From: an uncultured Sphingomonadaceae bacterium | GTDB taxonomy: Bacteria > Pseudomonadota > Alphaproteobacteria > Sphingomonadales > Sphingomonadaceae | NCBI GenBank assembly: GCA_947489315.1 | Contig: CANLCX010000002.1 | Span: 682,001 to 746,000 of the forward strand | Direction of reading: 5' to 3' | DNA: 64,000 nt | Shown here: positions 28,534 through 61,823 of the stretch, one piece after another | How positions within the stretch are numbered: the stretch's first letter is position 1 | Layout: every line of letters starts with the position of its first letter | Notes under the pieces: generated by a model | Database searches by the model: none | Told to the model about the DNA's origin: nothing | Seen by the model: only the letters and a program-made list of their open reading frames with translations | Made by a program: the position numbers and the translations under genes

Positions 28534-28642
28534 CTGATTGTGGTAGCAAGGGAATTTACACGATGCTGTGATGACCATCACTCACGCGGAAATATGCTAT
28601 AACCGCTTAGAAACAACAGCTATGGGGCCAGAAAGGACGGAC

Positions 28643-29236
28643 ATGGCACATTATACCGGACGGCCGCGATTTGAATGGGATGAGGATGGGCGGATCATGA
28701 CCCTGCTCAACCGCTTCGCCTTTATCGATAATGCGAAACTGGTGTGGAGCGTTCCAGCGAAGGCGCGGGTGGACGGCGCCTCAATCCCGAAATTTGCTTG
28801 GTCAATTCTGGGGAGTCCATTTGTTGGTCGCTATCGCAAGGCATCGGTCGTGCATGACTGGTATTGCGACGTCCGCACCCGCGAATGGAAAGCGACCCAT
28901 CGGATGTTCTACGAAGCCATGCGCGCGTCGAAGGTGAGCGGCGCCAAAGCACGGATCATGTACGGCGCGGTCTATTATGCCGGGCCGCGCTGGGACGTTG
29001 CGGCAGATTATAACACCGAACTGGCAGAGGTGATGGTACCAGAAGATTATAGCAGTCTGGAGCAGGACCAACTGTCGGAAGCCGAGCGAGTGGCGCGGCC
29101 GGACGTAACCCTGTGGCACCGCAAGCAAACGGATGAGGAGGCATTTTTGGCGATGTGCGACGATTTCGCCAAGAAATGCTCATCGATCGAGGATGTCGAG
29201 CTGATGATTGAGGAAGCGATGGGAGCGACGGAATGA
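28643..29236 (+). CDS. DUF1353 domain protein
   Basis: 197 residues from ATG 28643, which follows GAAAGGACGG; earlier in-frame starts at 28568 and 28622 lack such a site. The DUF1353 pattern is clear: FAFIDNAKLVWSVPAKARVDGASIPKF split by expected spacing, then VGRYRKASVVHDWYCD, and THRMFYEAMRASKV. The C-terminal about 80 residues are charged. DUF1353 proteins are common in tailed phages and as single chromosomal genes; the activity is unknown. No other phage gene is near. A long hairpin follows 36 bp after the stop. Confidence 0.88.
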   Translation: MAHYTGRPRFEWDEDGRIMTLLNRFAFIDNAKLVWSVPAKARVDGASIPKFAWSILGSPFVGRYRKASVVHDWYCDVRTREWKATHRMFYEAMRASKVSGAKARIMYGAVYYAGPRWDVAADYNTELAEVMVPEDYSSLEQDQLSEAERVARPDVTLWHRKQTDEEAFLAMCDDFAKKCSSIEDVELMIEEAMGATE

Positions 29237-29272: not shown

Positions 29273-29312
29273 TGGGAGCCGATCTCCAAACGAATTTGGA
29301 TTTCGGCTCCCA
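29273..29312 (-). terminator. Long hairpin, intrinsic terminator on the minus strand
   Basis: TGGGAGCCGA and TCGGCTCCCA pair outside, TCCAAA and TTTGGA inside, around a CGAA tetraloop. On the minus strand it is followed by seven T, the form of an intrinsic terminator for transcripts coming from about 29.4-30.05 kb. On the plus strand no T-run follows, though it may still protect the DUF1353 mRNA end. Confidence 0.65.
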
Positions 29313-29390: not shown

Positions 29391-29618
29391 TTATGGTTTT
29401 TGGTTTTCCGCATCATCGCTTGCGCAATCATGTTTCGGTTTAAACCCGATATTGGTCCAGTCACCCAATGATTGTTGTCCATCTGATCCACTCCGGCTTG
29501 CGCCTTTGCTTCTCGGGTTTTTTCCAATCATCAATCGAAAAATCATGCTATTTTTCTTGCGAAAAACAATATGGTCGTTTCGATTATCTTCCGGTCCTTT
29601 TTCGCTCCAACGGGTCAT
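29391..29618 (-). CDS. Hypothetical small hydrophilic protein
   Basis: 75 residues from ATG 29618; a GTG at 29672 would extend it by 18. The product is charged (RWSEKGPEDNRNDH, MIFRLMIGKNPRSKGAS) and ends in SLGDWTNIGFKPKH with an acidic tail. It has neither a recognised domain nor a signal peptide. It lies just before the minus-strand terminator and downstream of the peptide/hairpin unit, which would make it part of the same transcript. The opposite strand is also open, so I hold this lightly. Confidence 0.4.
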   Translation of the reverse strand: MTRWSEKGPEDNRNDHIVFRKKNSMIFRLMIGKNPRSKGASRSGSDGQQSLGDWTNIGFKPKHDCASDDAENQKP

Positions 29619-29707
29619 TGCTGACTGGTCGTCGGTTTGGTCTATTTCCTTCCGATGACTTGTATATGACACGGGTTTGCGAGTCGCTCCAAATGCTCAA
29701 GGGCGAC

Positions 29708-29762
29708 TTATCCACAGATGCAGATCTTTCTTGTGGAGAAACAGTGGCTGGGCTGTGGACAA
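29708..29762. other. Cluster of three DnaA-box-like sites
   Basis: TTATCCACA (29708-29716, perfect consensus), TGTGGAGAA (29732-29740, complement TTCTCCACA) and TGTGGACAA (29754-29762, complement TTGTCCACA) lie 24 and 22 bp apart. The neighbouring 29.4-29.65 kb stretch is AT-richer. It could be a replication or DnaA-titration site; the usual oriC neighbour genes are absent. Confidence 0.4.
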
Positions 29763-29848
29763 GCCAAGAATGTCGAAACCGCTTTCCTACACAGTTTGCC
29801 CTTTGATAGTTTTTAGCTGGTTCTTTCTCAGTGTTGAAGAATATCCCG

Positions 29849-29958
29849 ATCACCAACGGGTGATTGGTCCGGCCTTTCTATCGGGGGGATATTTTGAAAG
29901 GGCCGGACCGTCACAACAGTCCCGGTGCCTATCGGGAGGAGGAGCGCACACGGGACTG
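29849..29958 (-). ncRNA. Candidate CCUCC-loop small RNA (CuckooRNA/CcsR-like)
   Basis: On the minus strand three hairpins follow one another. The first (29958-29917) pairs CAGTCCCG with CGGGACTG and shows TCCTCCTCCCGATAG in its loop. The second (29909-29866) pairs GGTCCGGCC with GGCCGGACC and shows a C-rich loop with CCCCCCGATAG. The third (29864-29849) is ATCACC-CGTT-GGTGAT. Both first loops end in CCCGATAG, so they look like a duplicated unit. The layout, loops able to pair with Shine-Dalgarno sequences after a tiny ORF, is that of the CcsR/CuckooRNA class of alphaproteobacteria. No strong T-run follows the third hairpin. Confidence 0.6.
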
Positions 29959-29973
29959 AAAGAGTATTAAGTA

Positions 29974-30048
29974 TTAAACCTGAACGGTAGAGATCAAGAT
30001 GATGCTGCTAACGGTCAGGGAGGCTACTATATTGAAAAGCGTTTTCAT
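29974..30048 (-). CDS. 24-residue membrane peptide
   Basis: ATG 30048 is preceded by AGGAG at 7 nt. The product is a short amphipathic start (MKTLFNIVAS) and one hydrophobic segment (TVSSIILISTVQV). It would sit in the inner membrane. A GGAAA-N16-CGTT promoter lies 22 bp upstream and the CCUCC-loop hairpins begin 16 nt after its stop, so it is probably the leader cistron of a stress transcript. In the Rhodobacter CcsR locus a small DUF1127 gene has this position, but this peptide is not a DUF1127 protein. Confidence 0.65.
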   Translation of the reverse strand: MKTLFNIVASLTVSSIILISTVQV

Positions 30049-30069
30049 GGATTTTCTCCTGTTATCAAA

Positions 30070-30094
30070 AACGCCGATCAAACATCACTTTTCC
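30070..30094 (-). promoter_or_regulatory. Candidate EcfG (general stress sigma factor) promoter
   Basis: On the minus strand GGAAA (30094-30090), 16 nt, then CGTT (30073-30070) matches the alphaproteobacterial EcfG consensus GGAAC-N16/17-CGTT with one mismatch. It points at the 24-residue peptide and the hairpin RNA. Confidence 0.55.
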
Positions 30095-30189
30095 TGTCTA
30101 ACTGATAGTCAGGAAATGGTCGCCAAACCGTTAAGTTTCAATTGAAAACGGAGATACATTAGTTGCACGCTTTGCAACTAGTTGCAGTC

Positions 30190-30876
30190 CTAGAAAATGC
30201 CTTTGAGCAGCTTTTTTCCCTTTTTCAGGGGGTTTTTGCGGAAGTTTGTTTCCTCAGCGCCAATATAGGAGAAGATGCCGTCTAACGCCTGTTCGGTAAC
30301 ACTATCGGTTAATCCATCACGCGATAGATCAAGACCGCCCAGCGAACTCAAGGCAGACAAGGAACCAAGGCTTTCGACCTGTTTATAAGCACCGACTTCA
30401 CCAAGGGCTTTCTCGACTAAGGGACGGATTTTGATCGCCAGCTCTTCGCCGGATGTCTTGCGCAGATAGTCGGTTCCGCCCGTTCCGCCGCCGGTGGCAA
30501 TCCCTACGCCGTCGGTCAGCGTCAGATTATCGATCGCAGACCGGAATATCGGCTTGGCTTCCAGAGCCGCCTTACCCGCCGCATCGTTGAGGTTCTTGGT
30601 AATATCCTTGGTCAGGCCTGCCTTGCTGGTGAAGCGCAATATCTTGGTCGCATTTTTCAAGGGGCCGGGCAGTAAAACCCGGACTGCTTTATCGGCGTAA
30701 AAGGCTCCTGGCTTTGACAATTTGTCGAGCGCGCCATCAGACGCATTGCCGAGAAGGCTTTTGACACCCGTGCTTTGCGCTTGCGCCGGGGCAGATAATA
30801 TCGGAGACACGGATAATGGCACCGCCAGCAATGCTGTTGCTGCACTCAATTTCAGTTTCTTTGTAATGTTCCGCAT
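30190..30876 (-). CDS. DUF4197 domain exported protein
   Basis: 228 residues. A signal peptide (core SAATALLAVPLSVSPILSAPAQA) precedes a helical DUF4197 domain: ALDKLSKPGAFYADKAVRVLLPGPL, TKDITKNLNDAAGKAALEAKPIF, and the C-terminal VTEQALDGIFSYIGAEETNFRKNP, all read in their expected order. GGAGCGG precedes the ATG. The family is periplasmic and of unknown function. The C-terminus is strongly basic (KKGKKLLKG). It is followed downstream on the same strand by the peptide/small-RNA unit about 140 bp away. Confidence 0.9.
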   Translation of the reverse strand: MRNITKKLKLSAATALLAVPLSVSPILSAPAQAQSTGVKSLLGNASDGALDKLSKPGAFYADKAVRVLLPGPLKNATKILRFTSKAGLTKDITKNLNDAAGKAALEAKPIFRSAIDNLTLTDGVGIATGGGTGGTDYLRKTSGEELAIKIRPLVEKALGEVGAYKQVESLGSLSALSSLGGLDLSRDGLTDSVTEQALDGIFSYIGAEETNFRKNPLKKGKKLLKGIF

Positions 30877-61795: not shown

Positions 61796-61823
61796 CTTGT
61801 GTGATAAAAACATCACTCCATAT
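61796..61823 (+). promoter_or_regulatory. Sigma-32 (RpoH) heat-shock promoter of clpB
   Basis: CTTGTG (61796-61801), 14 bp, CTCCATAT (61816-61823) matches the heat-shock form CTTGAA-N13/15-CCCCATNT with few mismatches. It lies 33 bp before the clpB start, in the expected orientation. Confidence 0.75.

Follow-up and report, generated by a model that had tools for sequence, protein, structure and literature searches.

Results

The locus and its spread

In the window (the whole stretch of DNA analysed, 64,000 nt, taken from a genome assembly of 3.88 Mb in 11 contigs), a DUF4197 gene and a DUF1353 gene flank a short unit composed of a leader, an ORF for a 24-residue hydrophobic peptide and two RNA hairpins (Table 1). 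All the features of the unit, including an inverted repeat upstream of its predicted promoter, lie on the minus strand from about 30180 to 29866. The initial annotation had described here, with the strand left unstated, a GGAAA-N16-CGTT box, an ORF with its ribosome-binding site and two hairpins, and this layout was retained. No Rfam family reached its gathering threshold anywhere in the 64,000 nt, and ARAGORN detected neither tRNA nor tmRNA genes in the window.

Table 1. Position, strand and supporting evidence of the features of the unit and its flanks (positions in the window)
Feature	Position	Strand	Basis
DUF4197 gene, upstream flank of the unit	30876-30190	minus (same as unit)	Pfam, E 2.7e-46
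Inverted repeat AGTTGCA-N5-TGCAACT, upstream of the predicted promoter	30179-30161	minus	relaxed form in 29 of 30 units
Whole unit (peptide ORF, two hairpins, leader)	about 30141 to 29866	minus	
Predicted RpoH (sigma-32) promoter, TTGAAA-N16-CCATTT	30141-30114	minus	motif conservation
GGAAA-N16-CGTT box, here taken as transcribed 5' leader	30094-30070	minus	
Predicted leader hairpin	30081-30032	minus	consensus fold of 30 leaders (RNAalifold)
Shine-Dalgarno AGGAG of the peptide ORF	30060-30056	minus	sequence
ORF of the 24-residue membrane peptide, MKTLFNIVASLTVSSIILISTVQV	30048-29974	minus	length, dN/dS, hydropathy
A/U-rich linker, candidate RNase cleavage region	29973-29959	minus	sequence only
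Hairpin 1, loop with CCTCCTCCC at 29942-29934	29958-29917	minus	covariation and loop core
Hairpin 2, loop CCCCCC in own genome	29909-29866	minus	covariation and loop core
DUF1353 gene, other flank of the unit	28568-29236	opposite to unit	Pfam, E 4.9e-23

When 60 related genomes were searched with the 271-base unit, it was found in 30 of the 32 genomes of its own genus (Parasphingorhabdus according to the record names, including P. marina DSM 22363, P. flavimaris, Sphingorhabdus sp. 109 and EL138) and in none of the 28 others, with one match per positive genome. The two genus genomes with no match, G002 and G004, reach a completeness of 80% and 67%. All 30 copies were taken into the alignments of the unit, which show conservation of the ORF, of the leader, and of the stems and loop cores of the two hairpins; conservation of the hairpins had been named by the initial annotation as a point to be checked. 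As judged by this comparison, the unit is real, beyond chance. When 397 genomes of the order were searched with an RNA model under strict filters, eight were positive, seven of the own genus and one other (E 0.0086). A profile of the peptide, run on 297 genomes, gave nothing below E 0.004 outside the genus, and when six more distant loci (L138-L143) were read by eye downstream of their DUF4197 gene, no such unit was seen. Finally, a genome pattern scan returned 43 stretches, 23 from sphingomonads and 20 from other taxa; the latter, of which one (L081) was inspected, were taken as chance matches.

A micropeptide predicted to span the membrane

The peptide ORF has 24 codons in all 30 units, with a GGA core immediately 5' of its ATG in every one of them. 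Over codons 7-24, dN/dS was about 0.23 (Nei-Gojobori, 28 distinct rows), indicating purifying selection, and the other two frames contain stops in 19/30 and 20/30 units. Taken together, the constant length, the dN/dS value and the stops in the other frames are good evidence, by evolutionary criteria, that the peptide is translated. Residues M1, T3, L4, F5, N6, A9 and Q23 are invariant among the 22 distinct peptides, position 2 is K or R, and the exchanges at the remaining positions stay mostly within I, L, V, M, F, A, S and T. The GRAVY index of the own peptide is 1.52 (2.03 for its best 19 residues), a hydropathy that fits a single membrane span. It matched no Pfam or NCBIfam family, in agreement with the initial proposal of a hydrophobic peptide different from the DUF1127 leader protein; the peptide of one relative gave a sub-threshold match to YdgV (E 0.051).

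A mini-ORF starting at an ATG upstream of the peptide (MFDRRF) was considered and rejected, since the length of its frame is not conserved (5-7 codons in 23 of the 30 units, longer and overlapping the peptide in the other 7) and its substitutions ignore codon structure. In Sinorhizobium a short leader ORF likewise precedes a small stress gene of the DUF1127 type (PMC12218461), but that leader ORF is translated whereas here the upstream ATG is constant and its frame is not.

Two hairpins with anti-Shine-Dalgarno loops

In the own genome the loops are CTCCTCCTCCCGATAG in hairpin 1 and TATCCCCCCGATAG in hairpin 2. The RNA folds more stably than shuffled sequences, with z at -4.8 for the hairpin stretch and -4.9 for the entire predicted transcript. 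Covariation was tested on a two-stem structure that was written by hand from the same sequences; 96.0% of its cells pair (96.1% in hairpin 1 and 95.9% in hairpin 2), and this falls to 25-56% when the partners are slid by 1 to 3 columns. Both sides had changed in 6 of the 13 tested pairs of hairpin 1 and in 5 of the 13 of hairpin 2, so that compensatory change affects 11/26 pairs, against a mean of 3.9 in shuffled alignments, none of which reached 11 in 500 attempts. A second measure, the number of further pair types, did not exceed the shuffles (28 against 26.8; 154/500 reached 28).

CCTCC is present in hairpin 1 of 29 units and CCYCC in hairpin 2 of 29 units, out of 30 in each case, and the loop of hairpin 2 often reads CCCCTCCC in divergent members outside the closest relatives. 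The motif CCCGATAG, which the initial layout had at both loop ends, did not hold generally: it is common to them in this genome and its close relatives, and divergent members keep CCTCC or CCCTCCC instead. The exact CCTCCTCCC is absent from loop 2 of the own genome and occurs 12 times in that genome, compared with 9 for a reversed control. Among these 12 sites, with folds judged by eye, it lies in a strong simple hairpin loop only here; the stems at two others, L147 and L153, have just 6 and 4 pairs. Constant loop cores carried on varying stems would be the behaviour of loops that bind targets. The A/U-rich linker ahead of the hairpins differs in length among genomes, and a terminator scan of the minus strand from 29600 to 30300 found no site.

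The conserved box and a predicted RpoH-type promoter

The box had been read by the initial annotation as an EcfG promoter placing the unit in the general stress regulon. It does match a relaxed EcfG consensus with a spacing of 16 in 30/30 units, and half of the 30 unit-bearing genomes have both EcfG and PhyR. By itself the motif is weak, with GGAAM-N16-CGTT at 4 sites in the window against 1.19 expected (3/100 shuffles reach 4). However, when the EcfG protein of the genus member G027 was searched against all 32 genus genomes, an orthologue was found in 17 of them (E 2.3e-78 or better, 76-100% identity), whereas the other 15, the own genome included, returned at most distant ECF hits (best 2.4e-10), and one of them none. 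The best match in the own genome had E 4.7e-9 and 30% identity. The PhyR sigma-2 domain (PF22029) exceeded its cut-off in the same 17 genomes and in none of the 15 lacking EcfG, four of which gave sub-threshold matches (E 0.00997 or worse); in the own genome PF22029 had no match at E 0.5 or better, and NepR (PF18557) was not found either. Thirteen of the 15 EcfG-less genomes reach a completeness of 99% or more, and G006, also among the 15, is assembled as one contig. The 15 units from genomes with EcfG and PhyR and the 15 from genomes without them (the own genome and 14 others) all retain the box. As EcfG is absent from the latter 15 genomes and the box persists, it is most improbable that the box serves this organism as an EcfG promoter.

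Other properties of the box also speak against EcfG. It reads GGAAA in every unit and never GGAAC, whereas in each of the three phyR loci inspected GGAAC-N16-CGTT is found close to phyR. Within the spacer of the box, ATGTTTG is retained in 29/30 units, unlike the spacer of a promoter, and the extended pattern of the box is single-copy in the own genome, where no second copy was found within 3 mismatches. Another ECF sigma factor may read the same box, ECF genes being present in the own genome. One of these, a PF22233 match (L156, 27.4 bits), was considered as a possible EcfG and rejected: its product has Pfam sigma regions 2 and 4, it sits beside a possible anti-sigma gene as an ordinary ECF sigma factor, and a GGAA-N-CGTT site is missing just upstream. 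The split of EcfG and PhyR within one genus, present in 17/32 genomes and missing in 15/32, seems unusual in itself.

Upstream of the box, TTGAAA-N16-CCATYT begins 46-47 bases away. TTGAAA is found in 26/30 units and TTGCAA in 3 more, and CCATYT (CCATTT or CCATCT) in 29/30, the remaining unit, L018 from G017, having no CCAT. The spacer between these elements is variable, as in ordinary promoters, and the distance from the promoter to the leader box is 26 in 27/29 units and 25 in two; transcription is predicted to start near 30109-30106. The sigma-32 factor of E. coli is described as recognising TTGAAA and CCATNT (PMC3836757), the consensus given for rhizobial RpoH1 is CTTGAA-N15-16-CCTATAT, and Sphingomonadales have rpoH1 alone within the genomes of that study (PMC4843759). 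In sequence, the elements of the unit fit the sigma-32 motif and are close to the rhizobial RpoH1 motif. A like promoter, CTTGTG-N16-CCATAT, used as a control, is located just upstream of clpB in the same window (61796-61823; the gene, identified by TIGR03346 with 1195.9 bits, is cut by the window end). The RpoH motif is short, and weak when taken alone: 464 kb hold 8 matches to the pattern, the window one of these, against 3.15 in shuffles. With this predicted promoter upstream of it, the EcfG-like box would become part of the transcribed leader, and the unit looks to be under the control of the heat-shock sigma factor and not of EcfG.

A predicted hairpin in the leader

The RNAalifold consensus pairs UUGA (30081-30078) and GGCGUU (30075-30070) with AACGCU (30043-30038) and UCAA (30035-30032). 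The partner bases fall inside codons 2-6, and the ribosome-binding site and the AUG are enclosed in the loop. Codons 3-6 are frozen at synonymous sites (ACG, CTT, TTC and AAT in 30, 29, 30 and 30 of the 30 units), and the predicted fold would explain these codons as well as the conserved box with its ATGTTTG. The leader pairs are nearly invariant, with compensatory change in 0/10; because they hardly vary they yield no covariation, and the leader hairpin is still a predicted one. The sequence also allows GAAAAG to pair with CUUUUC, an alternative that would compete with it.

Other elements around the unit

The AGTTGCA-N5-TGCAACT repeat is possibly a regulator site or the end of the DUF4197 transcript. 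Downstream of the hairpins, three DnaA-box-like sites (TTGTCCACA, TTCTCCACA and TTATCCACA) and a GAGTC lie at 29681-29762 of the window, and TGTGGATAA is found downstream of the hairpins in 26/30 units; the sites at 29681-29762 may form a DnaA-binding cluster. An origin of replication at this place was rejected, since in the closed relative G006 (3.61 Mb) the counterpart at 0.75 Mb falls within one replichore, the GC skew, sampled in 20 stretches of 400 kb in all, staying mostly positive between 0 and 1.85 Mb and being negative in the rest. In addition, a 58-base stretch downstream of the unit (29781-29838) recurs with 76% identity elsewhere in the own genome (L002 1501-1558, on G000:C3), and an inverted repeat, GGGAGCCGA ... 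TCGGCTCCC, just past the DUF1353 gene (29274-29311, with no T-run) is a possible terminator.

In another genus of the family, we observed two very stable hairpins (L040 1496-1602, fold z -6.6) with loops CAUCCUCCU and ACCCUCCCCCUCCC, placed between AhpC-type and AhpF-like genes (Pfam) of a peroxide-stress operon; they resemble a second pair of anti-Shine-Dalgarno hairpins.

Discussion

The unit probably yields a 24-residue membrane peptide together with RNA hairpins able to block ribosome-binding sites. The reading that we consider best, with a probability of roughly 0.6, is that of an RpoH-driven, dual-function micropeptide-sRNA unit of the CcsR/cuckoo kind in which the peptide is unrelated to the one in the known loci.

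The loops of the Rhodobacter CcsR RNAs read CCUCCUCCC. As a term, CCUCCUCCC does not occur in PMC10253847. In Rhodobacter sphaeroides the ccaF1-CcsR1-4 locus (cuckoo RNAs, CIN1 locus) combines a small ORF with sRNAs of its 3' UTR behind an RpoH-type promoter (PMC10253847, PMC8625941); in the unit such a promoter is predicted from the conserved motif. The likeness to this locus proposed initially, a small ORF co-transcribed with stem-loop sRNAs that carry anti-Shine-Dalgarno loops, was upheld, and the replacement of EcfG by RpoH strengthens it, as the ccaF1-CcsR1-4 operon is reported to be driven by RpoHI/RpoHII (PMC10253847). The two differ in that the unit encodes a 24-residue membrane peptide where ccaF1 encodes a 71-residue DUF1127 RNA-binding protein, has two stem-loops instead of four RNAs, shows a predicted conserved leader hairpin and reads CCCCTCCC or CCCCCC in loop 2.

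Other RNAs of this type are also alike. In the alpha-r14 family (SmelA075/SmelA099, NfeR1) each stem-loop has an anti-Shine-Dalgarno loop and the stems vary freely (PMC3927594, PMC10746234), and RS0680a has two stem-loops with the motif in each loop (PMC3927594), whereas the rhizobial alpha-r14 RNAs, whose loops read CCUCCUCCC, fold into three or four hairpins and the unit into two. Against the Rfam model RF02344 (ar14) the unit scores 12.6 bits (E 6), below the gathering threshold of 58.8. What marks cuckoo/CcsR loci, at least two stem-loops with CCUCCUCCC-like anti-Shine-Dalgarno loops on variable stems, is found in the unit; the small DUF1127 gene that often, not always, accompanies them (CIN1 locus) is not, the peptide having no family and the neighbours being DUF4197 and DUF1353. 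Because both the DUF1127 association and the ar14 threshold failed, we do not file the unit as a proven member of this group. By analogy, the arrangement would work like a CcsR/cuckoo locus with a different partner peptide. Sigma-T of Caulobacter is of the EcfG type. GsrN, a Caulobacter stress sRNA that also has a cytosine-rich target-binding loop, differs from the unit in being regulated by sigma-T and only about 100 bases long; the passages on it mention no peptide ORF (PMC5869019).

According to the preferred reading, RpoH would turn on a single minus-strand transcript of about 240 bases starting near 30107. The leader hairpin would hide the ribosome-binding site of the peptide and so set its amount, and the product would act as a 24-residue single-span membrane peptide. 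The 3' part would form the two stem-loops, whose CCUCC loops would mimic the anti-Shine-Dalgarno of 16S rRNA, and this RNA, whole or after cleavage within the A/U-rich linker, could act as an sRNA that pairs with G-rich ribosome-binding sites and lowers the translation of target mRNAs. We propose the processing and target-binding steps because the published relatives behave in this way: CcsR1-4 are described as arising from the ccaF1 3' UTR with RNase E (PMC8625941), and blocking of ribosome-binding sites is the presumed action of the anti-Shine-Dalgarno stem-loop RNAs (PMC3927594).

More tentatively, the transcript might be a heat-shock RNA of three layers, in which the RpoH promoter is followed by a leader switch or thermometer, made out of the opening codons of the ORF and lying over the ribosome-binding site, and then by the micropeptide and the pair of anti-Shine-Dalgarno hairpins acting as sRNA. 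In this version an unrelated membrane peptide would have taken the place of the RNA-binding protein of Rhodobacter, and the membrane and translation responses would be tied together in one transcript; we regard this fuller version as possible and far from probable. Somewhat less likely still is a purely cis-acting role, in which the hairpins would be the mere 3' end of the peptide mRNA, with loops pairing to its own Shine-Dalgarno or with stems stabilising or terminating the transcript, and no sRNA would act in trans. The loop CUCCU is indeed complementary to the AGGAG of the unit, and some relatives, such as L008, have a T-run a few bases past hairpin 2; however, two like loops are kept on varying stems, as in the published anti-Shine-Dalgarno stem-loop RNAs, and the core of loop 1 is mostly unpaired in the predicted folds (mean unpaired probability 0.44-1.00 over the 30 units).

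We consider it improbable that the unit resembles a type I toxin-antitoxin system, in which a hydrophobic micropeptide acting on the membrane would be silenced by RNA structure. The length and hydrophobicity of the peptide (GRAVY 1.52) and a predicted leader hairpin that covers the ribosome-binding site are what such a system would show, but no antisense RNA gene was noticed on reading the sequence by eye, and type I toxins have a patchy distribution whereas the unit occurs in 30/32 genus genomes with one match in each. Least credible of all is membership of the general stress regulon through an EcfG promoter, given a box that is kept without EcfG in half of the unit-bearing genomes.

Concerning precedents, none of the literature matches listed, as judged from titles and abstract openings, dealt with such an RNA from sphingomonads. 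The cuckoo family was described in 2015, according to papers that cite the description (PMC10253847, PMC10746234), and the original description may already count sphingomonad members.

This locus illustrates that a promoter guessed from a consensus can be tested by the absence of a gene, as the sigma factor is missing in 15/32 genomes and the box stays. It also provides a precise, genus-wide case, comprising 30 genomes, of a micropeptide, translated by the evolutionary criteria above, fused to a structured RNA. If our interpretation is true, anti-Shine-Dalgarno stem-loop sRNAs would extend to a genus of sphingomonads, where another peptide is their partner.
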